DNA of 64,000 nt from Zanthoxylum bungeanum. Taxonomy: Eukaryota > Streptophyta > Magnoliopsida > Sapindales > Rutaceae. The translations under genes were made by a program, and so were the position numbers. Numbering within the stretch: the stretch's first letter is position 1; every line of letters starts with the position of its first letter. Below are positions 25,561-64,000 of the stretch, one piece after another. Under the pieces are notes generated by a model. It ran no database searches, was not told where the DNA came from, and saw nothing but the letters and a program-made list of their open reading frames with translations. The stretch covers positions 28,878-92,877 of the forward strand of contig SKCR01034771.1 of assembly GCA_019454045.1 (NCBI GenBank), given 5' to 3'.

Positions 25561-25564
25561 TGAG

Positions 25565-25950: not shown

Positions 25951-25954
25951 ACAT

Positions 25955-35860: not shown

Positions 35861-36740
35861 TGATGAGTGGTAAATGTATCACTATTTCCCACTCATTTGA
35901 CCTAATATTTTGTATATATTCTTGAGTTTTGTGAATATTTTGATGTGTTTTGTGTTATTTTGTAGATAAATAAAGTTTCAGAACTCTCTGGAATTGATTC
36001 ATGGCCAAAACAGTGAAAAAGGACAACAAATGGCAAAAATATCATTTGGCGTGTCGCGACGGACTCCACGCGTCGCAACGCCTATCGTGCGCTGGCCTAT
36101 GCTATTTTACGTCGCTTCATGCTAAAATGCGCCGTACCACTTGTCACAATCTGAGAAATCGGATAACATGTGCAGGCCACGTGTCAACATCTCAGCGATT
36201 CTGCTAACGTTAGTCGTGCCACATGTCGCCATCAAATGTTTCCGACAATCACCATAGCCACGTGTCATCCATGTGTCAGCCACGTAGGCGTCCACATCAG
36301 CTACATGCCAAGTCATTGTGCCACGTCATCACCACGTCATCATCAGCCAACCATCGCGAGACATGTGTCACAATCTTATGGTGCCGACAATCCACATCGC
36401 CACGTGTCGCCAAGTCATTGCCACATCACTGGATTAGACGTAACCGAGCCTGAAGTGTGTTCTAATCCCACTTGAATTTTGAATTTAATTGGGTGGGACC
36501 CACCACTCACATCACTTGTCAAAGGTGATGGTGGTAGTTGGCAAAAAGTAAATGGTTTTTTCAAACCACTAGCTTTTATCCAACATGGTTTTTGAAACCA
36601 GTATAACACACACTTATTTTGGAAACAATAACTATTCATCTCTCCCATTTTTTCCTCTCTTGGCCGAATGGGTTTCTTCTTGGAGGAGAAATTTTTTCTT
36701 TCAATTTTGTTCTTGCTAGCACATAAAGGAGTGAATCAAG
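35861..36740 (+). repeat. Athila-type LTR, first copy, left part
   Basis: Begins TGATGAGTGGTAAATG after GGGCC. It is matched by 50371-51461. The left part (to about 36440) is unrelated to the copia LTRs here. From about 36446 it resembles the downstream third of the copia LTR family: CCCACTTGAATTTTG, TGCTAGCACATAAAG and GGTGATAGGGAAAC phrases in the same order. It is split at 36740 by a minus-strand copia insertion and resumes at 45972. Confidence 0.85.
36177..36409 (+). promoter_or_regulatory. cluster of G-box/ABRE-like motifs in LTR
   Basis: CCACGTGTCA occurs at 36177 and 36258 and CCACGTGTCG at 36400, interspersed with several CCACGTCA and ACATGTGTCA variants. CACGTG with ACGTGTC is the classic plant G-box/ABRE core bound by bZIP and bHLH factors. 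The second LTR retains TCACGTGTCA (50716) and CCACGTGTTG (50939). Confidence 0.45.
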
Positions 36741-43974: not shown

Positions 43975-45966
43975 TGTTGGCTTTTCTAAGTCTTCCCAAG
44001 ATCAATTAAGTAATGAAAACATGTGAATACATCAAAGTAAGTTACGGAAATACTCACTTTGATCGGATTTGCGATGCGTAGAAAACAAAAAATTTCCTGC
44101 TCCTTCCTTGAAGCTCTCGGCCATGCCCCTCTTTTGTGCTCCATGTTTGATCTTCAAGCTCCAAGCTTTGAGAATGGATTCCATGCTCATGAATGGGTTT
44201 CCCTATCACCTTTGTTTGACCCATTGGATGTGCTAGCATCTTGGAAAAATTTACCACAAATTCTTTCCTTGGCTTCTTGTTATTCTCGGCAAAGGAGAAA
44301 AACAAAAGAGAGAAAAATGGCCCTTGGCCGAATCTTGAGGGAGAGAGAGGGAGAAGATGAAGTTGTGTGTTTGGTTGTTTGATTTCAAAAAACAAATACC
44401 AAAATCCCACTTTTCAAAAAAAAAAATGGTACAAGACTTTAAAGTCTTCCAACAACTCACAGCAATCAATGATGACAAAGTGTCAATCACCAAAAGGTGA
44501 TAAGACATCCATCACTTGAATGACTAATGATGTGACGCGTTATGTGACTTGTGGGCCCCACTTGATTCGAAATGCGAGTGGGCCCGCAAACACTCCCGGG
44601 CTCGGGTTCGCTAATTCCGAATTAACGAATTTTCCGTTGCGACGTAATTAAATCAAATTTAATTAAATAATTATGCCTAGCAAAATTACTATTCATATCG
44701 CTAGCGAATTAATTCTAAATTAACTCGTTTGCCCGAATTAAATTCTAATTTTAATTCCGCGTCGAAATCCAATTTCTTATAATATATCGAATATATTATT
44801 TTATCGATTAATTCCAAAATAATCGTTCTCTCTCTTTAAATAATATTTTATCCCAGATAAAATATCTCCGTAATTAATCATAGATTAATTTTCTCTCTCT
44901 AATAATTAATCCCATATTAATTATGTGCGAGTCATACGTCATCGGTGAATCTTCGGGGAGCGACCCATGAGATCCCTGGATATGTTGGCATTAAATCCGG
45001 TCGTCGGACTATCCGAACACGTACGTACCTAGTACTACGTTTTTACCGATTTACAAGACATGGTTGGCTTCTAGCAAAGTATCGTGCCTACCCAATTCTC
45101 CAGAAATATTCTTAAAGGAATATATAATCTATGTCAGGCGTAATATACGTAGTATTACGTATTGCGATCCAGTATTGGATGTCACATGCAAGGCCTAGGG
45201 TTGGAAAAGTGTCTGCCCCGTACGAAGCATATATCGGATCACAAACAACTAGTCTCTTTAATCAGATAATCATGACCATGTCATATTATCCCGATGGTTG
45301 CAACCAATTAGAGTACCGGTTCCGTATCCTGCGTGATCATCATCTCCATATGACTGGAGTGATACTTCCATCTTGACATCACACCCAATACACCACGATT
45401 CTCAATATACCTAGAAGAGGCGTACACAGAACCGGTTAAAGCCCTATACGACCAAAACCAAAGTATATTGATTGTTGTAAGTATTAGCGGTGCAAGTCTC
45501 AGGTTAAGACCAAATACACCTACCCTGATTCGGACTTCTATAGACACATAGTCATACTACCAATGGAATTCCGAGGGGTCTATCCAGAGCGAAGCTGTTT
45601 CCGTACCATCGGTAAACACAACCTCCTATTACACTTGCATGAGTATCCAATACCCAAATATATGATAACTATGTCGTTATGCTCCCACAACGTGCACAAG
45701 TGCAATACTAGTCTATTACGCATTAGCGATGTCCAATCTCGATAATACTCCGACTAGGGATTTTTTAATGATTAAACCTTCATGGATTGATACTGTCTCA
45801 TATCTTATCAATCCGGAACTAATCATATGGACTTTTTTCATTTATATATCCCGATACTCTAATTACAAATGATAAAAGAGCAATTTCCTTTGTCACATAG
45901 TTAATTTGTACAACAACACCATGTTCTGTACAAAATAGTGATGTTATGGGTCATAATTGTCCAACA
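43975..45966 (-). repeat. 5' LTR of minus-strand copia element
   Basis: 1992 bp, TGTTGGCTTTTC to AATTGTCCAACA on the plus strand. Close match to 36741-38735. Confidence 0.92.
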
Positions 45967-45971
45967 TAAAG

Positions 45972-46148
45972 GTGATAGGGAAACTCACCCGAGAGTTTGG
46001 AACTCGATTTCAAGCTCCGAGATACTACATCCAAAGGAATTTTGAAAGCCTAAAACTGATCAATGTGAGTTTTTTCCGCAACTTTCTTTGATTAATTCAC
46101 ACACGGATCACTCTTAGAGATCCTTGGCATGTTCTAGGAACACTAACA
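45972..46148 (+). repeat. Athila-type LTR, first copy, right part
   Basis: Continuation of 35861-36740 beyond the copia insertion, ending GAACACTAACA. The end resembles the CA terminus of the copia LTR family in its wording (TTCACAC, GATCCTTGG, CTAACA). The LTR would be about 1057 bp without the insertion. Integrase-upstream pol sequence starts in the next base. Confidence 0.75.
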
Positions 46149-47608
46149 TACTTTTTCTGCAAGAATTTGATGTGGAGATCAGATACAGGAAATGGACAGA
46201 AAATCAAGTGGCATATCATTTATCGAGACTCGAGAATGGTGATACAGCTGGAAAAGAACTAACAATCAAAGAAACTTTTCCAGATGAACTGTTGTTTGCC
46301 ATGAAACAAAAAGAAGTCCATTTGTATGATGACTATGTCAACTACATAGAGTCAGGAAAATGGCCGTTGGAATGGACAACTCAGCAACGGAAGAAATTCT
46401 TCAAAGAAGTCAAGCATTATGTCTGGGACGAGCCATACCTATTCAAACGTTGTGCTGATCAATTATTGAGATGTTGTGTTCCACAGGAGGAGGTCAAAAA
46501 TGTTCTGCAACACTGTCATTCATAACTATATGGCGGACACTTCAGCGGAAACAAAACAGCAGCCAAAGTCCTACAATCAGGTTTGTTCTGGCCCACTCTT
46601 TTTAAAGATGCTTATCTTTTTGCTCTTCAATGTGACAGGTGCCAGAGAACGGGAAATATCTCAATGAGAAATGAATGACCTATGCAGAACATTCTAGAAG
46701 TGGAGATATTTGATGTGTGGGGGATTGATTTTATGGGACCCCTTGTTCCATCATTCGGAAACCTGTACATACTGGTTGCAGTAGACTACGTCTCAAAATG
46801 GGTTGAAGCAATTGCACTACCATCCAATGATTCAAAAGTGGTGATTAAATTCCTTAAAAAGAATATTTTCACTCGCTTCGGAACACATTGGGATATTATC
46901 AACGATGGTGGCACACATTTCTGTAACAGATACTTTGATGCACTCCTATCCAAATACGGAGTTACTCATAAGGTTGCCACTGCTTACCATCCACAGTCAA
47001 ATGGACAAGTTGAAGTTTCAAACAGGGAGATCAAAAGAATCTTGGAGAGATCTGTTGGATCAACAAGGAGGGACTGGTTTACAAAACTGGATGACGCATT
47101 ATCGGCCTACCGGACAGCTTACAAAACATTAATTGGTATGTCCCCATATCGAATGGTGTTTGGGAAAACATGCCAGCTGCCAGATGAGCTTAAACACAAG
47201 GCGTACTGGGCACTGAAAATGTTGAATCTTGATCCACAAGCTGCAGGGGAGAAAAGACTCCATCAACTCAACAAATTGGAGGAATTTCGCCTACAGGGTT
47301 ATGAGCATGCCAGATTATACAAAGAAAAGACCAAAAAATGGCATGATCGAAAAATAGTGCGCAAACAACTTGAACCAAGACAGCAGGTGTTGTTATACAA
47401 TTCAAGGTTGAAACGTTTCACTGGAAAGTTGAAATCAAGGTGGTCAGGACCATTTGTGATCACTCAGGTTTTACCATATGGAGCTGTTGAGTTACTGGAT
47501 CCCAACACCAACGAGACATTCAAAGTGAACAATCAGCATGTCAAGCACTACTGGGGAGAATCATTTGAACGACAGAATGAAAGTGTCACACTTTCAGATC
47601 CAGCCTAA
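46149..47608 (+). pseudogene. Athila-type RNase H tail and integrase, unit 1
   Basis: A single reading frame with two in-frame stops (46523-46525 and 46676-46678). It opens with the end of RNase H (FLQEFDVEIRYRK, HLSRLENGD). The integrase zinc-binding HHCC region follows (HCHS, GGHF, CDRC). The DDE core has Asp in WGIDFMGP, Asp in INDGGTHF and Glu in [11 protein letters not shown], all present. The C-terminal domain ([15 protein letters not shown]) runs to TAA at 47606. No chromodomain, consistent with Athila. An ATG at 46124 lies inside the LTR and is probably not a natural start. Integrase would insert cDNA into the genome. The core from 46682 to 47608 is open for 308 codons. Confidence 0.9.
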
Positions 47609-47716
47609 GGTTTGGGCAGTCACGCCTAGCTGACGACATTAAACTTAGCGCTAGCTGGGAGGAAACCAATGCAATTTATGTATATATTGTGATTTGGTGT
47701 GTTTAGTTTTTACAGT

Positions 47717-47731
47717 TTAAGTCATTTCAGG
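47717..47731 (+). promoter_or_regulatory. candidate 3' splice site before small ORF
   Basis: A T-rich run ending CATTTCAG|G stands immediately before ATG 47732. The same sequence precedes the copy in unit 2 (53052-53059). It is a plausible acceptor for producing a spliced downstream mRNA; no donor has been identified. Confidence 0.35.
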
Positions 47732-48196
47732 ATGGAACAAGCTCTCACAAATCTTCACAAGCAATTTCCTTCTCTCCCTCAAAAATCTTTGATGAAAGTC
47801 TACAAAGTTCGCTTGGAACGGATGAGACTACTGATGATCAAAGGTATTTCTACTGATATTCGTTGGATTATTGAAGCACGGGTCCGATTGGCAGGTGAGT
47901 CTTCTAATTCTTTTATTTCACATCTGTCTGGTTTAGGAAGAAGCACCTACGCTAAAAAGAGAAAAGCTAAAAGAATGTGTGTTTGCTGTAAATGTGCTCG
48001 TATGTTTTGTGATACTTGTTGTCGTTCTTTAGGAATGGTGTCTGATAACCATGAAGATAAGATTAATTTCATTAGGGATGGGTTGAGTAAGGATTCTTTG
48101 GATGACATATCTAAGACTCTTGAGGCGCATCCCAGTAGATATGTGTATCACGAAATTCGCGTGTTATATACACAATTCCAAAAAGAAAGACAATAG
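47732..48196 (+). CDS. cysteine-rich basic ORF; carlavirus NABP-like?
   Basis: 154 codons from ATG 47732, right after a TTTCAG|G acceptor-like site (an upstream in-frame ATG exists at 47699). Residues 67-81 are strongly basic (GLGRSTYAKKRKAKR). A cysteine cluster follows with C85-x2-C88-x4-C93-x2-C96 and extra Cys at 83, 86 and 97, then an acidic tail with NFIRDG near 112. It is not a known retroelement domain. The order of helix-rich N-terminus, GRS-x-YA basic patch, paired CxxC and a downstream FI-x-x-G recalls the nucleic-acid-binding protein of carlaviruses. However, the spacing between the Cys pairs is shorter here, so this is a weak, unverified resemblance. It could equally be a captured plant zinc-binding protein. 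The position between integrase and LOG matches the env-like slot of Athila elements. Confidence 0.45.
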   Translation: MEQALTNLHKQFPSLPQKSLMKVYKVRLERMRLLMIKGISTDIRWIIEARVRLAGESSNSFISHLSGLGRSTYAKKRKAKRMCVCCKCARMFCDTCCRSLGMVSDNHEDKINFIRDGLSKDSLDDISKTLEAHPSRYVYHEIRVLYTQFQKERQ

Positions 48197-48465
48197 TTAA
48201 GTCTCGGGAACCTGACTCAAAAAGACCCTGTTTGCCAATTTATAAGAAAATTGGATGGGAAGCTTGTCCCTGACACATAGACGTCATTCAAGCCGCTACT
48301 TTTCTTGTAAATATTATATCCATTTGTCTTTTCCTAATAATTGTAATTTGTTTTTTTGTTTTCTTATATTTTCTCCGATAAGATCCAGACCTTTTTGACC
48401 TTTCACGATTTATTTACTGTTTAACTAATTATTATCATTTGGCCGGTACTAGTGCTATTATTTTT

Positions 48466-48481
48466 TACTCACTCTTTTCAG
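48466..48481 (+). promoter_or_regulatory. candidate 3' splice site before LOG, unit 1
   Basis: A pyrimidine-rich stretch ends CTCTTTTCAG|GTG, 50 bases before the LOG ATG at 48532. It is conserved at 53714-53729 in unit 2. Confidence 0.35.
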
Positions 48482-48531
48482 GTGTTATAAATTCAATTCA
48501 TCATTGCACTTTTGAAGGCATCCAGATAAAA

Positions 48532-49187
48532 ATGGAAGCCACTTCAAGAATACGAGTTGAAAATATTTGTGTATTTTGTTGTACTAGTGTTGGAACTAAG
48601 CCACAATACATAGCAGCAGCACAGGAATTTGGTCGAGTCTTAGCTGAAAGGAATATGCACTTAGTATATGGCGGTGTCAATCTTGGTCTAATGCGGATCG
48701 TTTTAAAGGCCGTACAGGATGGAGGCAGTCAAGTTCTAGGAATCATCCTAAAACCTTTGGTGGAGGCGAATCTGATATGACCATCAAACAGAGAGGAACT
48801 AATTGTGCTAGGTATGTCTGAATGACTGGTAGAAATGATTAACCGTGTTGATGCATTTATTACTTTGTCAGGTGGTTTGGGCACATTAGAGGAATTTTTT
48901 ACAGTGTTATCTTGGGCGAACCTGAACATACACCAGAAACCACTTGGACTATTCAACGTTGAAGGATTTTACTGATTTTCTTTGTGTATTTCTTGATGAT
49001 GCCCGGAGAAATGGGTTCGTGTCAAAACCTTTAAAAGAACTCATCTTCACTGCCAGAACTGCCCCAGATTGAATTGATCAAATCTTAACCTTTGAACCAC
49101 AAATTGACCGTATCATTTCCAAGATAAAATGGTCTGATGATGATTGTGGTAAGAAACGTCGGATAAATCTGGATCTTAACATTTAAT
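48532..49187 (+). pseudogene. captured LOG-like gene, unit 1, broken
   Basis: Homologue of plant LONELY GUY enzymes, which release active cytokinin bases from riboside 5'-monophosphates. The N-terminal RVENICVFCCTSVG and LVYGGVNLGLM are clear. Lesions relative to unit 2: Gly83 codon is a stop (48778-48780), the Arg98 codon is a stop, a one-base insertion follows near 48972 (FNVEGFY), and a further stop lies near 49067 after ARTAPD. The C-terminal tail (KKRRINLDLNI) is still recognisable up to TAA 49185-49187. No introns interrupt the gene, unlike ordinary plant LOG genes, so capture through an mRNA is likely. Confidence 0.85.
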
Positions 49188-50370
49188 TTCCCTTTAGAAT
49201 TTCAGCTAACCAGGTACTATCTTCTAAACTCATGCTTCTACTTTTTAAGATATTGGGGACAATGTCTCATTTAGGTTTTGGGGTGAGGAATAGTTGACTA
49301 GTATCTTGTTATTTTCTTTTATCTTGTTATTTTCTTGTTTTTATTTTTAGTCCAAATTTTTTTGAAAAATACAAAAAGTTTACAAAAATAAAAAAAAAAA
49401 TATTTTGTGTTTTTAATTTGATTAATCGGGTGAAATTGGTGTGAGATAGCTATGTAAGGAGTTTCCACTCCTGAGACGTATCTCAACCTATTTCGGAACA
49501 AGTTAATTTTTTTTATTTCCTTTTTTTAATTATTTAATTTGTGAATTCTCCATAAAACTAACAAAAATGGATCTTCATATGTTCAGTTGACAGGTATTAT
49601 CAACATACATGGTAACATACGGACATGAGCTGTAATTGAAAAGTTTGTAATATTCAGTGCTCTAGTTTAATTGGAAGAAGCATCTAAAAAGATATAGGAT
49701 ATAAAAAAAAACATATGAGATTCGGGTTATTAAGTCTGTAGGGTTGTCTTAACACCTAGTGCCCTAAAGCCAACTGGTTTGGGAGTCATTGGCCTAAAGC
49801 TCGCTACATAGATGGAAGATATTGTATATAAATAAAAAAAATTCAAAAAGAAAGAAAAAAATCAGAAAATTTATTCCATTGCTGCAAAAAGGTGTGAATT
49901 CTGATAAAACTTTAGGACAAAAATATTACTCTCTTCTCAACTGCACTTGTGACTATTGTAGGCAAAATGAGTTGATTAATATTTTGTTGGCTCTATATTA
50001 GGAGAATGGTAAATATAATCGAAGAATTTACTTATTCAGTAATTTAGAAAGAAACAAAACAACTATTCACTTGGAGTAGAAGTTTCACCTGTTTAGTCAC
50101 TAACTTCTTTATTCTCTTTTCTCTTGTCTTTTTGCTTCTGTGTGCATTAGTTTTACTATCTTTTTACTTTTGTAAAATGTTTGTGGGTATCGTTGCTGTA
50201 AGCCCTCACGAGATTAACACTCGTCCACTAGGGACACCTAGGGGTTTAAAGGCTTGTTGCATATGCTAAATCCAACCATGATCCCAACGAAAGTGGCTTA
50301 GCTTAATTGTTTATGTTATTTTATTTTGTTGTTTTGCTCGAGGACTAGCAAAATGTTAGGTTTGAGGGTG
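49188..50370 (+). other. Athila-type 3' untranslated region, unit 1
   Basis: Non-coding. It contains an internal polypurine-like TTAGGTTTTGGGGTGAGG near 49272, a second such site near the end, and GCTCGAGGACTAGCAAAATG at about 50336, a phrase I recognise from Athila-group 3' regions. The terminal polypurine tract AGGTTTGAGGGTG (50358-50370) abuts the LTR. Confidence 0.7.
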
Positions 50371-51461
50371 TGATGAGTGGTAAATGTATTTTAGGGGTGT
50401 GATTAGTGGTAAATGTATCACTATTTTCCACTCATTTGACCTAATATTTTGTATAGATTCTTGAGTTTTTTGAATATTTTGATGTGTTTTGTTTTATTTT
50501 GTAGATAAATAAAGTTTCAGGACTCTCTGGAATTGATTCAGGGCTAAAACAGTGAAAAAGGACAACAAAGGGCAAAAATGTCATTTGGCGTGTCGCGACG
50601 CACTCCATGAGTCGCAATGCCTAACGTGCACCGGCCTGTGCTATTTGGCGCCGCTTCATGCTAACATGCGTCATGCCACTTGTCACAATCTGAGAAATCG
50701 GATAATATGCGCAGGTCACGTGTCAACATCTCAGCGATTCTGCTAACGTGTGCCGTGCCATGTGTCGCCATCAAATGATGCTGAAAATCACCATAGCCAT
50801 GTGTCGTCCATGTGTCAGCCACGTAGGCATCCACATCAGCTACATGCCAAGTCATTGTTCCACATCATCACCACGTCATCATCAGCCAACCGTCGTGTGA
50901 CATGTGTCACAATCCTATGGTGCCGACAATATACATCGCCACGTGTTGCCATGTCATTGCCACATCACCGGATTAGACGTAACCGAGTCCGAAGTGTGTT
51001 GTCTAATCCCACTTGAATTTTGAATTTAATTGGGTGGGACCCACCACTCACATCACTTGTCAAAGGTAATGGTGGTAGTTGGCAAAAAGTAAATGGTTTT
51101 TTCAAAAATCACTTGCCTTTATCCAATGTGGTTTTTGAAACCATATATAACACATACTTATTTTGGAAACAATAACTATTCATCTCTCCCATTTTCTTCT
51201 CTCTTAGCCGAATGGGTTTCTTCTTGGAGGAGAAGTTTTTTCTTTCAATTTTGTTCTTGCTAGCACATAAAGGAGTGAATCAATGTGATAGGGAAACTCA
51301 CCCGAGAGTTTGGAACTCGATTTCAAGCTCCGAGATACTACATCCAAAGGAATTTTGAAAGCCTAAAATGGATCAAGGTGAGTTTTTTCCGCAACTTTCT
51401 TTGATTAATTCATACACGAATCACTCTTAGAGATCCTTGGCATGTCCTATGAACACTAACA
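50371..51461 (+). repeat. Athila-type LTR, second copy
   Basis: 1091 bp, TGATGAGTGGTAAATG to GAACACTAACA, uninterrupted. A 29-bp duplication of the polypurine/LTR boundary at its left edge (TGATGAGTGG at 50371, TGATTAGTGG at 50400) explains most of the length difference from copy 1. It contains the intact version of the site where the minus-strand copia element entered copy 1. It is followed directly by unit 2 pol. Confidence 0.88.
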
Positions 51462-52922
51462 TACTTCTTCTGCGAGAATTTGACGTGGAGATCAGATACA
51501 GGAAAGGGACAGAAAATCAAGTGGCAGATCTTTTATCGAGACTCGAGAATGGTGATACAGTTACCAAAGAACTGACAATCAAAGAAACTTTTCCAGATGA
51601 ATTGTTGTTTGCCATGAAACAAAAAGAAGTCCATTGGTATGATGACTATGTCAACTACATAGTGTCAGGAAAATGGCCGTTGGAATGGACAACTCAGCAA
51701 CGGAAGAAATTCTTCAAAGAAGTCAAGCATTATGTCTGGGACAAGCCATACCTATTCAAACATTGTCTTGATCAATTATTGAGACGTTGTGTTCCACATG
51801 AGGAGGTCAACAATGTTCTGCAACACTGTCATTCATCACTATATGACGGACACTTCAGCGGAAACAAAATTGCAGCCAAAGTCCTACAATCAGGTTTGTT
51901 CTGGCCCACTCTTTTTAAAGATGCTTATCTTTTTTCTCTTCAATGTGATAGGTGCCAGAGAACGGGAAATATCTCAAGGAGAAATGAAGTACCTATGCAA
52001 AACATTCTGGAAGTGGAGATACTTGATGTGTGGGGGATTGATTTTATGAAACCCCTTGTTCCATCATTCGGAAAAACCTGTGCATACTGGTTGCAATAGA
52101 CTACGTCTCAAAATGGGTTTACGCAATTGAACTAATATCCAATGATTCAAAAGTGGTGATTAAATTCCTTAAAAAGAATATTTTCACTCGCTTCGGAACA
52201 CCTAGTGCTATTATCAACGATGGTGGCACACATTTCTGCAACATATACTTTGATGCACTCCTATCCAAATACGAAGTTACTCATAAGGTTGCCACTGCTT
52301 ACCATCCACAATCAAATGGACAAGTTGAAGTTTCAAACAGGGAGATCAAAAGAATCTTATAGAGAACCGTTGGATCAACAAGGAGGGACTTGTCTACAAA
52401 ACTGGATGACGCAATATGGGCCTACTGGACAGCTTACAAAACACTCATTGGTATGTCCCTATATCGAATGGTGTTTGGGAAAGTGTGCCAACTGCCAGAT
52501 GAGCTTAAACACAGGGCGTACTGGGCACTGAAAAAGTTGAATCTTGATCCACAAGCTGCAAGAGAGAAAAGACTCCATCAACTCAACAAATTGGAGGAAT
52601 TTCGCCTACATGCTTCTGAGAATGCCATATTATACAAAGAAAATACCAAAAAATGGCATGATCGAAAAATGTGAGCAAACAACTTGAACCAAGACAGCAG
52701 ATGTTGTTATACAATTCAAGGTTGAAACTTTTCACTGGAAAGTTTAAATCAAGGTGGTCAGGACCATTTTTGATCACTCAGGTTTTACCATATGGAGCTG
52801 TTGAGTTACTGGATCCCAACACCAACGAGACATTCGAAGTGAACAGTCAGCATGTCAAACACTACTGGGGAGAATCATTTGAACGACACAAAGAAAGTGT
52901 CACACTTTCATATCCAGCCTAA
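51462..52922 (+). pseudogene. Athila-type RNase H tail and integrase, unit 2
   Basis: Same content as 46149-47608. The RNase H tail and the HHCC domain are better preserved here: open to 52099, with CHSSLYDGHF and CDRCQRTGN intact. A two-base insertion near 52072 shifts frame at the start of the DDE core. A stop at 52360-52362 and a frameshift near 52672 break the rest. The second catalytic Asp (INDGGTHF) and the Glu ([11 protein letters not shown]) remain recognisable at 52205-52350. Not functional. Confidence 0.9.
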
Positions 52923-53059
52923 TGTTCGGGCAGTCACGCCTAGCTGACGACGTTAAATTTAGTGCTAACTGTGAGGCAACCCATGAAATTTGTGTATATA
53001 TTGTGATTTGGTGTGATTTATTTGGTGTGGTTAGTTTTTGCAGGTTAAGCCATTTCAGG

Positions 53060-53443
53060 ATGGAACAAGCTCTCGCAAATCTTCACAAGCAATTTCATTC
53101 TCTCCCTAAAAAACCTTTGATGAAAGTCTACAAAGCTCGCTTGAACAGATGAGACTACTGATGATCAAAGGTATTCCTACTGATATTCGTTGGATTATTG
53201 AAGCACAGGTCTGATTGGCAGGTGAGTCTTCTAATTCTTTTATTTCACATCTGTCTGGTTTAGGAAGAGCTAAAAGAATTTGTGTTTACTATAAATGTGC
53301 TCGTATGTTTTGTGATTCTCGTTGTCGTTCTTTAGGAATGGTGTCTGGATGACATATCTAAGACTCTTGAGACGCATCCCATTAGATATGTGTATCATGA
53401 AATTCACGTGTTAAATACACAATTCCAAAAAGAAAGACAACAG
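53060..53443 (+). pseudogene. cysteine-rich ORF, unit 2, decayed
   Basis: Copy of 47732-48196. It has a one-base deletion near 53147, a small deletion that removes the basic GRS-x-YAKKR patch near 53266, and a larger deletion after GMVSG near 53345. The original stop codon is changed to CAG. It has clearly lost coding ability while the neighbouring LOG copy stayed open. Confidence 0.75.
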
Positions 53444-53713
53444 TTAAGTCTCGGGAACCTGACTTAAAAAGACCCTGTTTGCCAATTTATAAGAAAATTG
53501 GATGGGAAGCTTGTCCCTGACACATAGACGTCATTCAAGCCGCTACTTTTCTTGTAAATATTATATCTCTTTGTCTTTTCCTAATAATTGTAATTTGTTT
53601 TGTTGTTTTCTTTTATTTTCTCCGACAGGATCCAGACCTTTTTGACCTTTCACGATTTATTTTACTGTTTAACTAATAATTATCATTTGGCCGGTACTAG
53701 TGCTATTATTTTT

Positions 53714-53729
53714 TACTCACTCTTTTCAG
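53714..53729 (+). promoter_or_regulatory. candidate 3' splice site before LOG, unit 2
   Basis: TTTACTCACTCTTTTCAG|G, 50 bases before ATG 53780, equivalent to the site at 48466-48481. Confidence 0.35.
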
Positions 53730-53779
53730 GTGTTATAAATTCAATTCATCATTGCACTTTTGAAGGCATCCAGATAAAA

Positions 53780-54310
53780 ATGGAAGCCACTTCAAGAAGA
53801 CGAGTTGAAAATATTTGTGTATTTTGTTGTACTAGTGTTGGAACTAAGCCACAATACATAGCAGCAGCACAGGAATTGGGTCGAGTCTTAGTTGAAAGGA
53901 ATATGCACTTAGTATATGGCGGTGTCAATCTTGGTCTAATGGGGATCGCTTCAAAGGCCATACAGGATGGAGGCAGTCAAGTTATAGGAATCATCCTAAA
54001 AACCTTGGTGGAGGCGAATCTGATAGGACCATCAAACGGAGAGGAACTAATTGTGCCAGGTATGTCTGAACGACTGGTAGAAATGATTAACAGTGCTGAT
54101 GCTTTTATTTCTTTGTCAGGTGGTTTGGGCACATTAGAGGAATTTTTTATAGTGTTATCTTTGGCGAACCTGAACATACACCAGAAACCACTTGGACTAT
54201 TCAACGTTGAAGGATTTTATGATTTTCTTTATGTATTTCTTGATGATGCCCGGAGAAATGGGTTCATGTCAAAACCTTTAAAAAAACTCCTCTTCACTGC
54301 TAGAACTGCC
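53780..54310 (+). pseudogene. captured LOG-like gene, unit 2, codons 1-177
   Basis: Intron-free LOG family gene, open for 177 codons until the nested element. Visible family features: CVFC at 13-16, LVYGGVNLGLMG at 44-55, Arg98 in MSERLVEM (usual MHxRKAxM), and SGGLGTLEE at 113-121 in place of PGGYGTxEE. The catalytic Arg and Glu121 are thus retained, but the motif proline is Ser and the Lys after Arg98 is Leu. [15 protein letters not shown] matches the nucleotide-binding core of the family. LOG proteins cleave cytokinin riboside monophosphate to free base plus ribose 5-phosphate in the cytosol. The frame also extends upstream to 53600, but ATG 53780 fits the family. With the last 40 codons at 63627-63749, total length is 217, normal for LOG. 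The only break is the insertion at 54311. Confidence 0.88.
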
Positions 54311-56863
54311 TGTAGGACACAGAAATCGGCGACGCTGTTCTAGGCTCGCGGCCTGGTCGGGAGTACAGAGTAGCCCGCGGGGGACTAAACCGGAGAATAA
54401 TGGAGTCGCCACCCAGTGTAAACTGGGAAATGATTTAAGGTCGCACTTACCCCTCGCAAGGGAAGACCTCAAACCGTTGCGTTCGGAATGGTCCCTTACT
54501 TATGCCACTTGTAATGAAAGGATTTGTGCAATAATCTAACCGAGTCTACGCAACATACATATGCAAGAATAACCTACATCTAAGTTCGCACACAACATAT
54601 ACCTAAGTTTGCATAAGACCTATATCTAAGTTTGCATGCATAAAAGTAAGTCGGAATAATGGCAAGCACACAATCTCATGAATACATTAAATTAATACAT
54701 GTGGAAACATAGATAAATCATGCATAAAATAACATACTAAAAAGCTAAACCATCCATAAAAATAACAGACTAAATAATTAAATCGTGCGTAAAAATAACA
54801 TACTAAACAATTAAATCATGCGTAAAAATAACATACTATTTCTAATAAACAATGAATAAACACATGATCGGATGAAACGAAATATGTGTGTCTCTCAAGC
54901 GGTATGTGGCATTGTATCCCAAGTACATACCGTACTACCATCCATTCGGATTCAGCTACGAAATTTACGTCTGGATTTCCATCAGATATACCGCAAGAGA
55001 TAACCGTATTTCATTCATCCCATAGCCACAATTTTCATGAATCCATAATATACATGTGAAGAAATAATACTAAATAACAAAAAAGAACGGGAATAAATAA
55101 AAAAGGGGTTCCCTCAGGTCTAACTACTTAAGTCATGTCTTAGAAGTGCATTACGCGGTTGTCGGAAGGGTTGGTGCTCCGCGACTTTTCCGATTTACTG
55201 AATTTCTGTTTTCCTTTGTCGCCTCGCTGTTTTGGGTTGTTGTTTCCTCTGTTTTTGCTGCTATTTTCTGGTGTTATTTTTTATAGTTGTTTGTGGTTTT
55301 GGATGCATTTTTTGGTGGCTGGTTTGTGGTTTTGGGTGCAGTTTTTAGTGGACTGGTTTACGGTTTAAAAGGTGCAGTTTTGTGGGTTAGTTTTGGTCGG
55401 TTTGGTCAGTGAAGTGAGGTGCTGTTCTGGTTGCTATTGGCGTGAATGTGAATGAGTTGATGGGTGTGCGTGAATGGGGTGTTTATGTTCGGCCATGAGG
55501 GTTTTTTGTTGTTCACGGTCAGTGGGATGTGTTTGTTGATTTTGACACGAGGTCGTGCGTGAGGTGAGAGCTTTTAGGGTTGCTTTGTGCGTGTATTTAA
55601 GAGGCTGTTTGAAGGGCTTTGTGCATCTATTCAGGAGGCTGTTTGAAGGGCTGCCGAGTGTTTTTAAATGAGAGGGGTTGAGCGTGTGCTTATGTAGGTT
55701 TGATCCGGCTTGTGGGTTTTTTGAAGGCTATAGGTTGTTAACGTGAGCTGAAAGTCTTCACGTAGTCTGCATGAAGAGGCAGTTTAGTCGGTTGAGGGAG
55801 AGAGAATGTGGCGTGCGTGAGGTGAGGGCCTTTAGGGTTTTTATGGTGATGGTGCCGTGTTTCCAGAGAGAGAGATGAAGGTCTGCGTGAGGGGAGGGCC
55901 TTTAGGGTTTTTGTGGTGATGGTACCGTGTTTCCAGAGAGAGAGAGAGTGCCGTGATCTGTCTTATTGCTGAGTGAGAGAAGAACCGTGAATGACCAGGG
56001 TTTGTTGTTTTTGTGGAGTGGCGTGGAAGAAGAAGGTTAGGCTGTGAACTGTTTGGGTTTTGTTGTTGCTGAGGTTGAGAGGATGAGAGCTCGTGTGGCT
56101 TTAGCTATTAGGGTTTTTTCTTTTTTTGGTTTCTGAGAGAGAGGGGGCATGAGAGAGCTCTAGGAGGGGAATGGGCTTGGTTTAAGGTCCTTTTTATAGG
56201 AGAGGGTTGAGGTTATCCTTGTATGGGAATGGAAAGAAATGTGTAATTATGGAGGAAATCTCTAATTAGTGTGTCATAAGGAAAAATCTATTTGTTTTAG
56301 GAAGGTAATTTGTAGGATTTGATTTGATTTTATTTAGTTTAGGCATGTGATTTAATTTAATTAGGAAGGTGATTTATGAGATTTGATTTGATTTCATTTA
56401 GTTTAGGAATGAGATTTAATTTAATTCTTTTAATTCGGGAATGTGATTTGTGAGATTTGATTTGATTCTTTTAATTCAGGAAGGTGATTTATTTAGATTT
56501 CTTTAATTCGGGAAAGTGATTTATTTAGATTTTAACTTGTGTTTAATGTGTTTGCATATTTTTGGATGTGATTTAATGGGCTTGGAGGCTTTATGGGCAT
56601 GTGGTTGGAAGGCTTGGGCATGTGGTTGGTTGTTTTGGTGGGTTTGGTATCGATTGTGGGGGGGGTTTTGGGCCAAGGATAAGTTCTAAAACAGAGGTTC
56701 AACGAGCAAACCCGAAGCTAAGCAAACGAATTGAGTCCAACAAGATATTGATTTCTGGATTTCCCTTCCCACGTCTGTTTCCCGCGACTTCCGCAACTTA
56801 AAGAGCAGTGCCTCCGTACGAGGCTCATCATTGGGACTTATATGTAAAAATGCAGTGCCTACA
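54311..56863 (-). repeat. 3' LTR of minus-strand LARD
   Basis: 2553 bp, plus-strand reading TGTAGGACACAG to GCAGTGCCTACA. It is shorter than the TR-GAG LTR because it lacks the hairpin tandem block. A TATA box on the minus strand (TATAAAAA) lies at 56191-56198. Confidence 0.92.
56191..56198 (-). promoter_or_regulatory. TATA box in LARD LTR
   Basis: TTTTTATA on the plus strand, TATAAAAA in the element's direction. It is conserved at 62968-62975 in the other LTR, where it would act as the promoter of the element. Confidence 0.5.
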
Positions 56864-56877
56864 GTCGCCCCCACTTT
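56864..56877 (-). other. polypurine tract of LARD
   Basis: GTCGCCCCCACTTT on the plus strand, the exact inverse of the tract at 27047-27060. Confidence 0.75.
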
Positions 56878-57049
56878 GATGGGACTTTTGCAGTGTGTGA
56901 CAATGACAATCCTACCAAAGTTATGTAATGCATTTTTACTTACCTGGCTCGCCAGCTGCCGCTTGAGTTGCTTGTTGCTTCGAACTGAGTTGATCTGGTG
57001 GTGTGGTGCTGCGACTCCTCAGGTTCATCCCTGCAATATGTTGTGATCT

Positions 57050-57570
57050 CTAGGAATCACTACCGAACTAAGCGCCATTTCCGGCATGCTAAACCTCATT
57101 TACGAGGCGTCTCTGATGTGATCGTGGTCCATTTCCGAACTGTGCTCCATTTCCGGAGTGCCATTTTCGTCATGCTAAACCTCATTTCCGAGGCGTCACT
57201 GATGTGATAGTGGTCCATTTTCGAACTGTGCTCCATTTCCGGAGTGTTATTTTCGGCATGCTAAACCTCATTTCCGAGGCGTCGCTGATGTGATAGTGGT
57301 CCATTTCCGAACCGTGCTCCATTTCCGGAGTGCCATATTCGGCATGCTAAACCTCATTTCCGAGGCATCGTTGATGTGATAGTGGTCCATTTCCGAATCA
57401 TGCTCCATTTTCGGAGTGCCATTTTCGGCATGCTAAACCTCATTTCCGAGCCGTCGCTGATGTGATAGTGGTCCATTTTCGAACCGTGCTCCATTTTCGG
57501 AGTGCCATTTTCGGCGTATGATGTGATATTGGTCCATTTCCGAACCGTGCTCCATTTCCATAGTACCATT
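57050..57570 (-). repeat. tandem array of about 86-bp units
   Basis: About six units built on CATGCTAAACCTCATTTCCG and GTGCTCCATTTCCGGAGTGC (plus strand), with spacing near 86 bases. Open frames here are periodic artefacts. It has no counterpart in the TR-GAG-like element. Confidence 0.85.
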
Positions 57571-57574
57571 TCTA

Positions 57575-59066
57575 GCGTCTGATGTGGGCCTCAACCCTGG
57601 GACTCATCCCCAAAAACTGATGCTGATGTGGGCCTCGACCCTGAGACTCATCCCCAAAACTGATACTGATGTGGGCCTCGCCCTATGACTCATCCCCAAA
57701 ACTGATACTGATGTGGGCCTCGACCCTGAGACTCATCCCCAAAACCGATACTGATGTGGTCATCGACCCTGAGACTCATCCCCAAAACTGATACTGATGT
57801 AGGTCTCGACCCTAGGACTCATCCCCAAATCTGAAGCTGATGTGGGCCTCGCCCCTGGGACTCATCCCCAAAACTGATACTGATGTGGGCCTCGACCCTG
57901 GGACTGATCCTCAAAACTGATACTGATGTGGGCCTCGACCCTAGGATTCATCCCCAAAACTGATACTGATGTGGGCCTCGGCCCTGAGACTCATCCCCAA
58001 AACTGATACTACTGTGGGTCTCGACCTTGGGACTCATCCCCAAAACCGATACTGATGTAGGCCTCGACCTTGGGACTCATTCCCGAAACAGATACTGTTG
58101 TGGGCCTTGACCCTGGGACTCATCCCCAAATCTGATAATGATGTGGACCTCGACCCTGGGACTCATCCCCAAAACCGATACTGATGTAGGCCTCGACCTT
58201 GGGACTCATTCCCGAAACAGATACTGTTGTGGGCCTTGACCCTGGGACTCATCCCCAAATCTGATACTGTTGTGGGCCTCGACCCTGGGACTCATCCCCA
58301 AAACCGATACTGATGTAGGCCTAGACCCTGGGACTCATTCCCGAAATATGGGCCTCGACCCTGGGATTCATTCCCGATGCTGCTGATAACATGGTCCTTG
58401 ACCCTGGGATTCATTCCCGAAATTGCTTATAATATAGGTCTCGACCCTGGGATTCATTCCCCTGGGATTCATTCCCGAAACTGCTGATAGTGTGGGCCTC
58501 GACCCTGGGATTCGTTCACCTGGGATTCATTCCCGAAACTACTGATAATGTGGGCCTCGACCCTGGGATTCATTCCCGAAATCGCTGACAATGTGGGCCT
58601 CGACCCTGGGATTCATTCGCGAAACTGCTGATAGTGTGGGCCTCAACCCTGGGATTCATTACCCTGGGATTCATTCCCGAAACTACTGATAATGTGGACC
58701 TCGACCCTGGGATTCATTCCCGAAACCACTGACAATGTGGGCCTCGACCTAGGGATTCATTCCCCTGGGATTCATTCCCGAAACTACTGATAGTGTGGGC
58801 CTTGACCCTGGGATTCATTCCCGAAACCGCTGACAATGTGGGCCTCGACCCTGGGATTCATTCCCCTGGGATTCATTCCTAAAACTGCTGATAGTGTGGA
58901 CATCGACCCTGGGATTTATTCCCCTGGGATTCATTCCCGAAAATACTGATAATGTGGGCCTCAACCTTGGGATTCATTCCCGATGCTGCTGATAACATGG
59001 GCCTCGACCCTGGGATTTATTCCTGAAATTGCTTATAATATGGGCCTCGGCCCTGGGATACATTCC
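57575..59066 (-). repeat. tandem array of about 43-60-bp units
   Basis: More than 25 imperfect units of GATGTGGGCCTCGACCCTGG plus GACTCATCCCCAAAACTGAT (to about 58350), then CTGGGATTCATTCCCGAAAC variants. In element orientation this reads as the GAGGCCCACATCAGTATCAG array of 25565-25950 followed by a GGGAATGAATCCC relative of array B. Confidence 0.88.
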
Positions 59067-59078
59067 CCAAAACTGCTT

Positions 59079-59215
59079 GTCTTTGCCGCTTTTTCCTTTT
59101 CTTCAAAACCTGCGAACAAAAACAAGACAAAAATTACGTGTATGTGACGTGTATGCATGTGTGCATGAATGTGTTTCCTATTCCGATGGGTTAGGTCTTC
59201 CTTGTGCTCCTTGGT
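59079..59215 (-). other. post-gag segment shared with TR-GAG-like element
   Basis: Homologous, in reverse complement, to 25353-25485, including the GGTTTTGAAGAAGAG-like and AAGACCTAACCC phrases. It marks the downstream edge of the gag replacement. Confidence 0.65.
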
Positions 59216-60409
59216 GTCATTTGCCTATAACTGTCTTTGGTCGCCCTCTGGGCCTGCTTATAGTTTCTTTTTGCCGGTTCTTTTCTGGTGATTGGTCAGT
59301 CCTCTTTATTCTCATTTGCTCAAGTTATCGTTGTGTCCCTTATTTACGGGGTGGTAGACTGGTCGCCCCCAGTCTTGATTTAGCTTTCTGCTCTCCGCTG
59401 CTTGCATTAGGTCAAGGTGGACCACACGGTATGGCATTCAACATCATCATATTATATCACATGCTACGAAGTAGTCCCAATAGTTACACATATTATTGCC
59501 CTCAAAGAATGCCCAGTATTGAAACCAGAGAACCTTCAAAACATTCAACGCAACTCAAATCCAAGTCTTTGAATAAATGATCTAAGCTAGACTCAAAGTG
59601 TGTGTGTGCAAAGATTCATTTGCAGATTCATCCCCAGATAAGCAAACTCAATGATTTTGTCAAAAAATGGGATCAATGGGTCAAACCAACCTAGATGTCT
59701 CAATTATGCCTGCAATTGCTTTTATGTGCTCAATGTGGTGTGGTTTTCTTTCTCTTTTGTCTCTTTCTTTTTCTTTTCATTTTGAACCTTTTTTTTTCTT
59801 TTTTTTTTTTTTTTTCTTTTTTTTCCAACACACCTACCCTTTAAGGTAGCATTTCTCCTCATAGTGGTCCTAATACTCGCCCATGGGTAGCTTCACGCTT
59901 ATCGGTTATAAGTGGTTCAATTCTTTTCCTTAGAGACTTTTCTTTAATTTTCAACCATACCACACGTCATAACATAACCAAATCAAGATAGACATCTAAG
60001 CAAACGGTCATTCACCGACCTACAATTTCTTCGACTAGTCACCTTACCAACTACTCAGGTTTTCATTGCTAAGAACCTATAGTGAAGTGTTTACGAGTCT
60101 AACATAGATCAATCACGCAAAGTATCAGATAAAAGCACATCAAGAGTTTATCGTTTCTAAGATTTCTCCCTAAAGCAATCGATTTCATCATCGGGCTTAT
60201 GTCTAACTATTAAGGACTAAGAACAGTTTTCTTTTTTTTTTTCTTTTCTTTCTTTTTTTCCTCTTTTTTTTTTTCTTTTTTTCTTTCTTTTTTTTTTTCT
60301 TAAGGCCCTCATATGGTCTTTCTATTCTTGCCAGTAAATTTTTATGTTCTCGATTTCCTTTTCCCCAATATCCATGTTTGCTAAACTCTTCTTGACAAGT
60401 CTTTTTTTT
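59216..60409 (-). other. unrelated segment replacing gag in LARD
   Basis: No similarity to gag of the TR-GAG-like element. It contains T-rich tracts at about 59788-59824 and a T/C tract at about 60226-60300. A 183-codon frame on the opposite strand (59029-59580) partly covers array sequence and has no family signature. The origin is unknown; it could be a captured fragment or a deletion-filler. Confidence 0.5.
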
Positions 60410-60466
60410 CCTAACCCAACGGATATCTATGATGGCTTTTAAGACACATGGGTTAACATGATGCAT
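60410..60466 (-). pseudogene. gag upstream stub in LARD
   Basis: Nineteen codons, MHHVNPCVLKAIID through WVR, match the extension upstream of gag at 23609-23665 in the TR-GAG-like element. Downstream the homology ends abruptly and lysine-rich microsatellite translation takes over. Confidence 0.6.
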
Positions 60467-61066
60467 GTATGCATGAGATGCATGAGATGTGTGCGATGTA
60501 CGAGATATAATATGCATGTGGTTATCAAAAGCATAAAGGGTGGCTTCTATTGGTCATACAACTACGATTCACATGCGGGCTTATGAGAGTATAGACAAAG
60601 GCTCTCGCCGGCGAAGGGTTGCCCACAACTAGGTCTCCCCACTCAAGGGTTCGAGCGATCGAGTGAGTGCGCATTTTGTATACCCTAAGGTACGTGCCAA
60701 TGAGTGATGATACATGACTGACTATCAAATGGATTTCTTATTGCAGATTCCCCAGAGGGAGGGTGGAGCGGACTATCTTAAATACCCAAGCCTCTTAGGC
60801 TCTTATCGCCTTGGTGATAGGAATAAACAATAGGTCCTCCAAATAAGTCCATCACGGTAAGCTTCGAGTAAATGATTATCTAGGTGCCTTCACAGCTTTT
60901 CCTTTCAGCTATATAAATGTAGTGAATGAAGGAAGACACCAAACCATTACCTAGCTCTAATAATGCCTTTGATTAAACCCTTTGGTCCTAACCCACTTGC
61001 AGAGACGGTTAAATAAAGCGAAAATCACAAACATTATAAGACATTATTTCGGGGCCGATTCTCTAT
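60467..61066 (-). other. leader of LARD
   Basis: Non-coding leader homologous to 22576-23110 of the TR-GAG-like element, including the ACCCTTGAGTGGGGAGACC stretch. The three-copy TTGGGCCATTTAAAC repeat is absent here. Confidence 0.65.
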
Positions 61067-61083
61067 CCCCAGTGGAGTCGCCA
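61067..61083 (-). other. primer-binding site of LARD
   Basis: CCCCAGTGGAGTCGCCA on the plus strand gives TGGCGACTCCACTGGGG in element orientation, the same as at 22560. Confidence 0.7.
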
Positions 61084-61086
61084 GAC

Positions 61087-63621
61087 TGTAGGACACAGAA
61101 ATCGGTGACGATGTTCCAGGCTCGCGGTCCGGTCGGGAGTACGGAGTAATCCGCCGGGGACTAAACCTGAGAATAATGGAGTCGCCACCCAATGTGAACT
61201 GGGAAATGATTTAAGGCCGCACTCACCCCTCGCAAGGGAAGACCTCAAACCATTGGGTTCGGAATGGTCCCTTACTTATGCCACTTATAATGAAAGGATT
61301 TGTGCAATAATCTAACCGAGTCTACGCAACATACATACGCAAGAATAACCTACATCTAAGTTCGCACACAACCTATACCTAAGTTTGTATAAGACCTATA
61401 TCTAAGTTTGCATGCATAAAAGTAAGTCGGAATAATGGCAAGCACACAATCTCATGAATACATTAAATTAATACATGCGGAAATATAGATAAATCATGCA
61501 TAAAATAACATACTAAACAGCTAAACCATGCATAAAAATAACAGACTAAACAATTAAATCCTGCGTAAAAATAACATACTATTTCTAATAAACAATGAAT
61601 AAACACATGATCGGATGAAACGAAATATGTGCGTCTCTCAAGCGGTACGTGGAATTGTATCCCAAGTACAGACCATACTACCGTCCATTCAGATTTGGCT
61701 ATGGAATTTACGTATGGATTTCCATCCGAAATACCGCAAGAGATAACACATATTTCATTCATCCCATGGCCATAATTTTCAAGAATCCACAATATACATG
61801 CGAAGAAATAATACTAAATAACAAAAAAGAACGGGAATAAATAAAAAAAATGGTGCCCTCAGGTCTAACCTCTTAAGTCGTCTCTTAGAAGTGTGTTACG
61901 CGGTTGTCGGAAGGGTTGGTGCTCCGTGACTTTTTCGATTTACTGATTTTCTGTTTTCCCTCGTCGCCTCGCTATTTTGGGCTGCTGTTTCCTCTATTTT
62001 TGCTGTTGTTTTCTGGTCGTTATTTTTGGTTGTTGTTTGCGGTTTTGGATGCAGTTTTTGGTGGACTAGTTTGCAGTTTTAGGTGCAGTTTTTAGTGGAC
62101 TGGTTTGTGGTTTAAAAGGTGCAGTTTTACGGGTTAGTTTTGGTTGGTTTAGTCAGTGAAGTGGGATGTTGTTCTGGTTGCTATTGGCGTGAATGTGAAT
62201 GAGTTGCTGGGTGTGCATGAATGGGGTGTTTACGTTCGGCCATGAGGGTTGTTGTTGTTCACGGTCAGTGGGTTGTGTGGGTTGATTTTGACACGAGGGC
62301 GTGCGTGAGGTGAGGGCTTTTAGGGTTGCTTTGTGCGTGTATTCAGGAGGTTGTTTGAAGGGCTTTGTGCGTGTATTCAGAAGGCTGTTTGAAGGGTTTT
62401 GGCGTGTATTCAGAAGGCTGTTTGAAGGGCTGCCGAGTGTCTTTGATGAGAGGGGCTGAGCATGTGCTTATGTAGGTTTGATCCGGCTTGTGGGTTTTGT
62501 GAAGGCTAGGGGTTGTTAACGTGAGTTGAAGGTCTTCACGTAGTCTGCACGAATGGGCAGTTTAGTCGGTTGAGGGAGAGAGAATGTGGCGTGCGTGAGG
62601 TGAGGGCTTTTAGTGTTTTTGTGGTGATGGTGCCGTGTTTCCAGAGAGAGAGATGAAGGTGTGCGTGAGGGGATGACCTTTAGGGTTTTTGTGGTGATGG
62701 TATCGTGTTTCCAGAGAGAGAGAGTGGCGTGATCTGTCTTATTGCCGAGTGAGAGAAGAACCGTGAATGACCAGGGTTTGTTGTTTTTGTGAGAGTGGCG
62801 TGGAAGAAGAAGGTTAGGCTGTGAACTGTTAGGGTTTTGTCGTTACTGAGTTTGAGAGGAGGAGAGCTCATGTGGCTTTAGCTATTAGGGTTTTTTCTTT
62901 TTTTGGTTTCTGAGAGAGAGGGGGCATGAGAGAGCTCTAGGAGGGGAAAAGGCTTGGTTTAAAGTCATTTTTATAGGAGAGGGTTGAGGTTATCCTTGTA
63001 TGGGAAGGGAAAGAAATGTGTAATTATGAGGGAAATCTCTAATTAGTGTGTCATAAGGAAAAATCTATTTGTTTTAGGAAGGTAATTTGTAGGATTTGAT
63101 TTGATTTTATTTAGTTTAGGCATGTGAGTTAATTTATTTAGGAAGGTGATTTATGAGATTTGATTTCATTTCATTTAGTTTAGGAATGAGATTTAATGTA
63201 ATTCTTTTAATTCAGGAAGGTGATTTGTGAGATTTGATTTGATTCTTTTAATTCGGGAAGGTGATTTATTTAGATTTCTTTAATTCGGGAAGGTGATTTA
63301 TTTAGATTTTAACATGTGTTTAATGTGTTTGCATATTTTTGGATGTGATTTAATGGGCTTTGAGGCTTTATGGGCGTGTGGTTGGAAGGCATGGGCATAT
63401 GGTTGGTTGTTTTGGTGGGTTTGGTGCGGATTGCGGGGGTTTTGGGCCAAGGATAAGTTCTAAAACAGAGGTTCAACGAGCAAACCCGAAGCTAAGCAAA
63501 CGAATTGAGTCCAACAAGATATTGATTTCTGGATTTCCCTTCCGACGTCTGTAACTTAAAGAGTAGTGCCTCCGCACGAGGCTCATAATTGGGACTTATA
63601 TGCAAAAATACAGTGCCTACA
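61087..63621 (-). repeat. 5' LTR of minus-strand LARD
   Basis: 2535 bp, the partner of 54311-56863. TATA box on the minus strand at 62968-62975. Confidence 0.92.
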
Positions 63622-63626
63622 CTGCC

Positions 63627-63749
63627 CCAGATTTAATTGATCAAATTTTAACCTTTGAACCACAAATTGACCCTATCATTTCCAAGATAAAATGGTCTGA
63701 TGATGATTGTGGTAAGAAGCGTCGGATAAATCTGGATCTTAACCTTTAA
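63627..63749 (+). pseudogene. captured LOG-like gene, unit 2, last 40 codons
   Basis: After the CTGCC duplication the LOG frame resumes in phase (PDLIDQILTFEP) and runs open to TAA 63747-63749, ending KKRRINLDLNL. It matches 49063-49187 of unit 1. The tail LDLNL fits the LxLxL pattern of EAR-type motifs, although similar basic-plus-LDL tails may simply be normal in some LOG clades. Confidence 0.85.
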
Positions 63750-64000
63750 TTTCCCTTTAGAATTTCAGCTAACCAGGTACTATCTTCTAAACTCATGCTT
63801 CTACTTTTTCAGACATTGGGGACAATGTCTCATTTAGGTTTGGGGGTGAGGAATAGTTGACTAGTATCTTTTTATTTTCTTGTATCTTGTTATTTTCTTG
63901 TTTTAATTTTTAGTCCAAAATTTTTTGAAAAATACAAAAATCAAAAAAATATTTGTGTTTTTGTGTTTTTAATTTGATTAATCGGGTCAAAAAAAATATT
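63750..64000 (+). other. Athila-type 3' untranslated region, unit 2 (partial)
   Basis: Near-identical to 49188-49430 and including the internal polypurine-like TTAGGTTTGGGGGTGAGG near 63834. The window ends before the next LTR. Confidence 0.8.

Follow-up and report, generated by a model that had tools for sequence, protein, structure and literature searches.

Two stretches of one gypsy-type retroelement

The window, i.e., the whole 64,000-nt stretch of Zanthoxylum bungeanum DNA that we analysed, contains in its right part two stretches of one gypsy-type retroelement, referred to here as units A and B (Table 1). Unit A starts at position 45966, while unit B consists of 51279-54310 and a tail from 63622. 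Both units display the same order of genes, an integrase followed by an ORF resembling nucleic-acid-binding proteins (NABPs) and a homologue of the plant cytokinin-activation gene LOG. The two units are 92.1% alike across the integrase and into the beginning of the ORF behind it (45966-48044 and 51279-53347) and 95.8% alike over their last part (48099-49063 and 53346-54310).

As for pol, the integrase core is recognized in unit A (Pfam rve, 2.5e-14 on 46682-47608) and the integrase zinc-binding domain in unit B (Pfam H2C2, 1.2e-8 on 51437-52099), each domain being found in one unit only because the pol of each unit is broken. Across the two units together, H2C2 and rve are thus present at the 3' end of pol and before the 3' LTR, which is the Ty3/gypsy arrangement. 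Since rve is the sole Pfam match in 46682-47608, with no chromodomain after the integrase of unit A, the element would in this one respect fit the Athila clade, to which it had initially been likened. Upstream of this, Pfam returned no match on 46124-46525; we take portions of unit A pol to be an RNase H tail, an integrase zinc finger, and a GPF-type C-terminus, assigned by eye. A single tblastn probe of the window for the reverse transcriptase of the element gave no match in the units.

The stretch of ~900 bases between the units, which has a second copy elsewhere in the window, is most simply an LTR, and the sequence just ahead of it is, by eye, a probable polypurine tract. The internal part of unit B begins right after this probable LTR, at an element position that matches the start of the similarity in unit A. 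We infer that A and B are copies of one deletion derivative, which was later duplicated, perhaps via LTR-LTR recombination.

Table 1. Features of units A and B and of the element nested in unit B (positions in the window)
Feature	Position	Strand	Evidence
Unit A, gypsy pol (3' end) with two in-frame stops	46124..47608	+	Pfam rve on 46682-47608; frames read
Unit A, NABP-like ORF	47732..48274	+	Open to stop 48194-48196, homology on to 48274
Unit A, 3' splice-site-like sequence	48462..48481	+	Top of 143 kept AG sites; 50 bases ahead of LOG ATG
Unit A, LOG homologue, broken	48532..49183	+	tblastn with P0186 in two frames (68% and 61%)
Unit A, probable polypurine-tract region	50358..50373	+	By eye
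Probable LTR between units (3' LTR of A)	50374..51282	+	92% identical copy at 35861-36743; exact ends inferred
Unit B, frameshifted gypsy pol (3' end)	51437..52940	+	H2C2 on 51437-52099; frames read
Unit B, NABP-like ORF, broken	53060..53521	+	tblastn with P0143, P0130, P0139 in three pieces
Unit B, same 3' splice-site-like sequence before LOG	53710..53729	+	Third of 99 kept AG sites, level with second
Unit B, LOG homologue, open over its first 177 codons	53780..54310	+	Pfam Lysine_decarbox 2.5e-30
Target-site duplication CTGCC, left copy	54306..54310	+	5 bases flanking nested element
Another LTR element inside unit B LOG	54311..63621	+	LTRs, target duplications
Target-site duplication CTGCC, right copy	63622..63626	+	5 bases flanking nested element
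Unit B, LOG C-terminus, basic patch and LxLxL tail (63714-63746)	63624..63746	+	Frames, tblastn

The initial annotation had assigned the entire interval 46149..64000 to the two units. However, about half of it (54311-63621) is a foreign element of 9.3 kb that splits the LOG homologue of unit B, and the CTGCC duplications together with its own LTR pair rule out that it is part of the LOG-bearing element. Its LTRs (54311-56863 and 61087-63621, of 2553 and 2535 bases) are 93.8% alike, with a K2P distance of 0.065. The region 57071-59062 contains tandem arrays with a spacing of 43 and 86 bases; the nested element, which has few ORFs, looks like a non-autonomous one with long LTRs.

Other repeats lie further upstream. 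A Copia-type element occupies 12760-16322, with a Retrotran_gag_2 gag and GAG-pre-integrase and RVT_2 domains, and inverted repeats of this part are found at 39-43 kb. At 19045-30433, there is a repeat in two copies ~8.0 kb apart, 96-97% alike in their best-matching stretches, parts of which resemble the LTR of the nested element in inverse orientation; the single ORF scanned in it gave no Pfam match.

The ORF between integrase and LOG

An ORF in the integrase-LOG interval, at 47732-48196 in unit A, had been left out of the initial annotation. Its product is matched by the Pfam models Carla_C4 (2.6e-4) and Viral_NABP (1.7e-5), both above the gathering scores, with 21.3 and 25.4 bits against PF01623 and PF05515, for which the curated cut-offs are 20.9 and 23. 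Homology extends beyond the stop, the relative P0130 being aligned by tblastn over 47732-48274 at 71%. The corresponding ORF of unit B is degraded by stops, a frameshift, and an internal deletion of ~55 bases relative to A. Searches recovered 61 homologues at E<=0.01 among 82 candidates, with 43-83% identity. By our own patterns, and many of the 61 sequences being fragments, the cysteine motif CX2CX4CX3-4C is found in 47, a GxSxYAKKRRA-type basic stretch in 41, and both in 35.

The best reading of these similarities is that the ORF is related to the cysteine-rich nucleic-acid-binding proteins of plant viruses. An origin without viral kinship, in which the element evolved its own nucleocapsid- or env-like protein and arrived by convergence at a basic stretch followed by a zinc finger, is improbable in our view. 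It would account for best single-protein E-values of just ~1e-5 to 3e-8, for a cysteine spacing tighter than in carlaviruses, and for the fold comparison, in which the poor AlphaFold model (pLDDT 57) gave no viral match at E<=0.001. Against such convergence stand a window ORF that exceeds the curated cut-offs of two Pfam models, and a family of 32 (31 relatives and the window ORF) in which Carla_C4 is matched by 31 members (best 1.9e-7) and Viral_NABP by 25 (best 3e-8), all at E<=0.01. Moreover, among the 32 non-significant viral matches in the fold search, 11 bear names of Betaflexiviridae viruses, and seven of these are among the first eight. Comparing the NABP profile with the PDB yielded nothing convincing, the best match being a cullin at 0.044. 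Neither a single NABP nor the NABP alignment picked up a relative in IMG/VR, and a plasmid collection gave none either.

A broken LOG homologue in each unit

An intron-free LOG homologue downstream of the integrase in each of the two units, as proposed in the initial annotation, was confirmed by Pfam and by tblastn with the relative P0186 (217 aa). This protein aligns along 48532-49183 in unit A, in two frames, and over 53780-54310 and 63612-63746 in unit B, with no intron in the homology. Since LOG is found in both A and B, it was there before the duplication of the units, which is also what had been suggested. The motifs reported for both units, in contrast, are only partly shared: LVYGG and GGLGTLEE, a form of GGxGTxEE, can be read in A and B, while the MSER motif with Arg98 is intact in B and reads MSE-stop in A.

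Neither gene is functional. In unit A, there are stops at codon 83 and at the Arg98 codon, a frameshift near 48960-48978, and further stops after it; its open part still matches Pfam SLOG cluster4 (1.1e-7), and the basic tail at 49151-49183 ends in INLDLNI. Unit B, which contains a LOG/lysine-decarboxylase-like domain, retains Arg98 and Glu121, the catalytic residues of the LOG phosphoribohydrolase, but residues G17, G49, P113, and W128, nearly invariant among its relatives, have all been replaced. Comparison of A with B gives dN/dS values of 1.1 for the integrase (85 changes), 4.8 for the NABP-like ORF (18 changes, one synonymous and 17 non-synonymous), and 1.9 for LOG (22 changes, three synonymous and 19 non-synonymous), which rest on small numbers of changes and bear on the dead window copies only. 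These values match the expectation for unconstrained decay, without purifying selection in the window copies. Both window copies are dead.

Relatives of the LOG homologue

With the unit B piece as query, 939 of 1234 candidate proteins were retained at E<=0.001. Among the best 120 of these 939, the nearest relatives show 82-84% identity, those from Populus, Xanthoceras, Reevesia, and Paulownia 47-56%, and some clusters hold dozens of member sequences. A first tree, built from 37 rows with two bacterial ones among them, placed the 33 element-type rows in one group with a support of only 90/92. In a second tree of 48 rows, 22 rows, which are unit B and 21 database proteins that we chose by hand, form one side of a branch supported at 100/99. 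This single group is joined to Arabidopsis LOG3 and LOG8, the only host plant LOGs included, and these 24 rows are separated from 24 bacterial LOGs at 100/98. A bacterial donor is rejected by this tree, with its two host plant LOGs. The phylogeny with host genes that had been called for thus puts the element LOG on the plant side, while two host sequences do not pin down the donor within plants. Its lack of introns and its place beside plant LOGs, opposite the 24 bacterial rows, make it likely that the element LOG was captured from a plant mRNA, in line with the mRNA intermediate initially envisaged.

The structure predicted for P0186 (pLDDT 85.8) adopts the LOG fold, its best PDB match being Arabidopsis LOG3 (2a33; E 9.6e-23, rmsd 1.0). 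The active site is mostly kept among 93 full-length relatives: Glu121 is found in 92, Glu120 in 91, and Arg98 in 85, the remaining eight having Gln instead (P0189, P0192, P0198, P0199, P0200, P0204, P0208, and P0288). By contrast, just nine of the 93 keep the Lys99 of host enzymes. The Gln98 relatives, whose ORFs are still open, are perhaps enzymatically dead, and, given Gln98 and the rarity of Lys99, catalysis may have been changed or lost in some element-type LOGs.

These relatives bear directly on whether the captured genes are passengers, i.e., whether LOG and the NABP-like ORF were acquired by template switching and have no role in element or plant, with intact copies only a few generations away from their masters. 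We regard this as unlikely, yet it finds backing in the broken state of both window copies, in their dN/dS values, and in the loss of Arg98 in some relatives. What disfavours it is that open LOG relatives of ~217 aa have diverged to a median pairwise identity of 59% and a minimum of 44% with most active-site residues kept, and that the NABP homologues are likewise diverged; divergence this deep without constraint should yield stops, with the proviso that a protein database favours open ORFs and so biases the openness of the relatives. For the lineage at large, the diverged open relatives therefore speak against passive hitch-hiking by way of argument rather than test. The initial annotation had taken a dN/dS of about 1 as the mark of hitch-hiking; the window copies give it, but they are dead copies only, and the open relatives argue otherwise.

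NABP and LOG as a pair

Evidence that LOG relatives reside in retroelements is direct only in the window and indirect in one Citrus gene model, P0180. Residues 1-56 of this model are 91% identical to the NABP P0143, while residues 55-93 and 79-147 match LOGs. Another protein, P0173 (205 aa), has a NABP as its second half according to Pfam and, by eye, the start of a gypsy reverse transcriptase as its first half; a deletion in some other element may have created this junction. Together, P0180 and P0173 suggest that the NABP-LOG pair probably characterizes the lineage of the element, beyond the present locus. The NABP P0172 and the LOG P0104 share the same longest contig size of 12,891 bases, which is suggestive only: by eye, at least five short sizes (650, 905, 1018, 1080, and 1110) also recur between the NABP and LOG lists, as expected by chance, so that many short agreements and one long one make for weak evidence of linkage.

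It is quite improbable that the relatives in Populus, Xanthoceras, Paulownia, and other plants represent a cellular LOG subfamily, with capture limited to the window element and its near kin. Several of them are indeed annotated as ordinary genes (e.g., LOGL10 in Populus), and pol was not seen beside them. However, the clusters with dozens of members resemble repeats, as do the sets of nearly identical gene models in Xanthoceras and Paulownia, and P0180 unites NABP and LOG pieces. In addition, YgdH domains have been reported within Gypsy consensuses of Citrus and Populus (PMC9289625). This suggests that some Populus, Xanthoceras, or Paulownia genes annotated as LOG or LOGL10 may be transposon genes.

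As for expression, both units have the same 3' splice-site-like sequence ahead of LOG. It ranks high among the AG sites kept by a simple home-made pyrimidine score, whose filter removes AG sites close behind another AG. A splice acceptor ahead of NABP is unsupported by the same score, the sites before the NABP ATG ranking 49th of 143 in A and 27th of 99 in B, with none prominent. Env-like genes usually sit as sense ORFs behind pol and ahead of the 3' LTR, and spliced messages have been reported for some of them (PMC7264820).

A C-terminal LxLxL tail

Unit B LOG ends in INLDLNL, a terminal LxLxL as in the EAR motif, which unit A (INLDLNI) lacks. An LxLxL motif at most three residues from the C-terminus is found in 73 of the 93 full-length relatives and is absent in 20; 75 conform to a laxer pattern, and also 75 to a pattern with two Lys/Arg ahead of the motif. 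Chance rates are 3.6% when the last 16 residues are shuffled and 0.7% when the whole protein is shuffled, and the 73 rows share ancestry, so that their number measures conservation rather than 73 independent events. In the P0186 model, residues 202-217 fall below a pLDDT of 50. The rows without the motif include the Xanthoceras group, which branches off close to the root of the LOG group in the trees, and the motif may thus have been gained later within the group. With its basic patch and terminal LxLxL, the LOG tail resembles an EAR-type repression motif, which binds corepressors, joined to a possible nuclear signal; this resemblance is a lead rather than a test.

A model for the NABP-LOG module

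We favour, with somewhat more confidence than doubt, the view that A and B are decayed copies of one derivative that arose by deletion within an old Ty3/gypsy lineage of plants, and that the 3' region of this lineage carries a NABP and a LOG from plant mRNA as a module serving the element, through RNA protection and cytokinin. The lineage is best read as an old gypsy lineage of eudicots, with a NABP of a kind also found in RNA viruses. The two-gene module takes the place of the usual env-like ORF, its first gene encoding a small basic, cysteine-rich protein like the nucleic-acid-binding proteins and silencing suppressors of carlaviruses and their kin. Both ORFs would be translated from spliced 3' transcripts. 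The NABP-like protein would bind element RNA or small RNAs and shield them from silencing, while LOG would release cytokinin from its ribotide in the cells that express the element. The freed cytokinin may then favour dividing cells, in which the element could multiply and from which it could enter the germ line. The least certain step is the last, in which the basic LxLxL tail would direct LOG into the nucleus, where a corepressor of the TOPLESS type would be its partner.

A bolder version seems doubtful to us, and about as improbable as the passenger scenario. It would have a gypsy lineage spread throughout eudicots carry the module for a long time under selection, as a viral-type silencing suppressor and a LOG with a nuclear corepressor tail, the NABP having passed between virus and retroelement; a single element would then act on RNA silencing as well as on hormone-controlled cell division. 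Hormone enzymes that are a fixed part of a retroelement are rare but on record, and here there is in addition a protein of the silencing-suppressor class of RNA viruses. If selected, the NABP-LOG pair would allow one to test how a transposon influences the silencing and the cell division of its host, and would be a link through which RNA viruses and retroelements exchange genes.

Comparison with known systems

Contrary to the initial belief that a LOG-bearing retroelement was undescribed, LOG in gypsy elements is already known, while the NABP neighbour and the LxLxL tail are the part added here, within the literature searched. In the titles and abstracts searched, which leave most subscription journals and the 2011 report outside, there was no report of NABP-like ORFs in retrotransposons, nor one that links an EAR motif to LOG and LTR retrotransposons. 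The 2011 report (Steinbauerova, Genetica) reportedly described two Athila-like elements with similarities to LOGL4. A YgdH (LOG) domain has since been published for Gypsy consensus sequences from two Citrus species, C. sinensis and C. clementina, and, under a laxer filter, from Populus trichocarpa, a finding placed by its authors in line with Steinbauerova et al. 2011 (Alvarado-Marchena 2022, PMC9289625). As in the window, a LOG-type domain is thus inside a gypsy element of eudicot hosts; the accessible text of that report mentions neither a viral-type NABP neighbour nor an LxLxL tail. Gypsy elements of orchids with an AlkB-type RNA demethylase are likewise a combination of gypsy and captured enzyme, the latter differing from LOG and having its activity shown in vitro; AlkB-type proteins are also found in plant RNA viruses (PMC9289625).

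Compared with Arabidopsis LOG3 (2a33) and LOG8 (1ydh), element-type LOGs have a common fold, the GGxGTxEE motif, and Arg98/Glu121, with a median identity of 48% to LOG3 and 44% to LOG8. Unlike in these host enzymes, the Lys after Arg98 is mostly gone, and the basic LxLxL tail sits past the portion that can be aligned with them. The element NABP shares with the nucleic-acid-binding proteins and silencing suppressors of carlaviruses and their kin in the Betaflexiviridae (PF01623 and PF05515) a basic GxSxYAKKRRA-type stretch followed by a cysteine cluster. It differs from them in its size of ~182 aa, in its conserved LGNLTxKDPVCQF tail, and in being borne by a retroelement.
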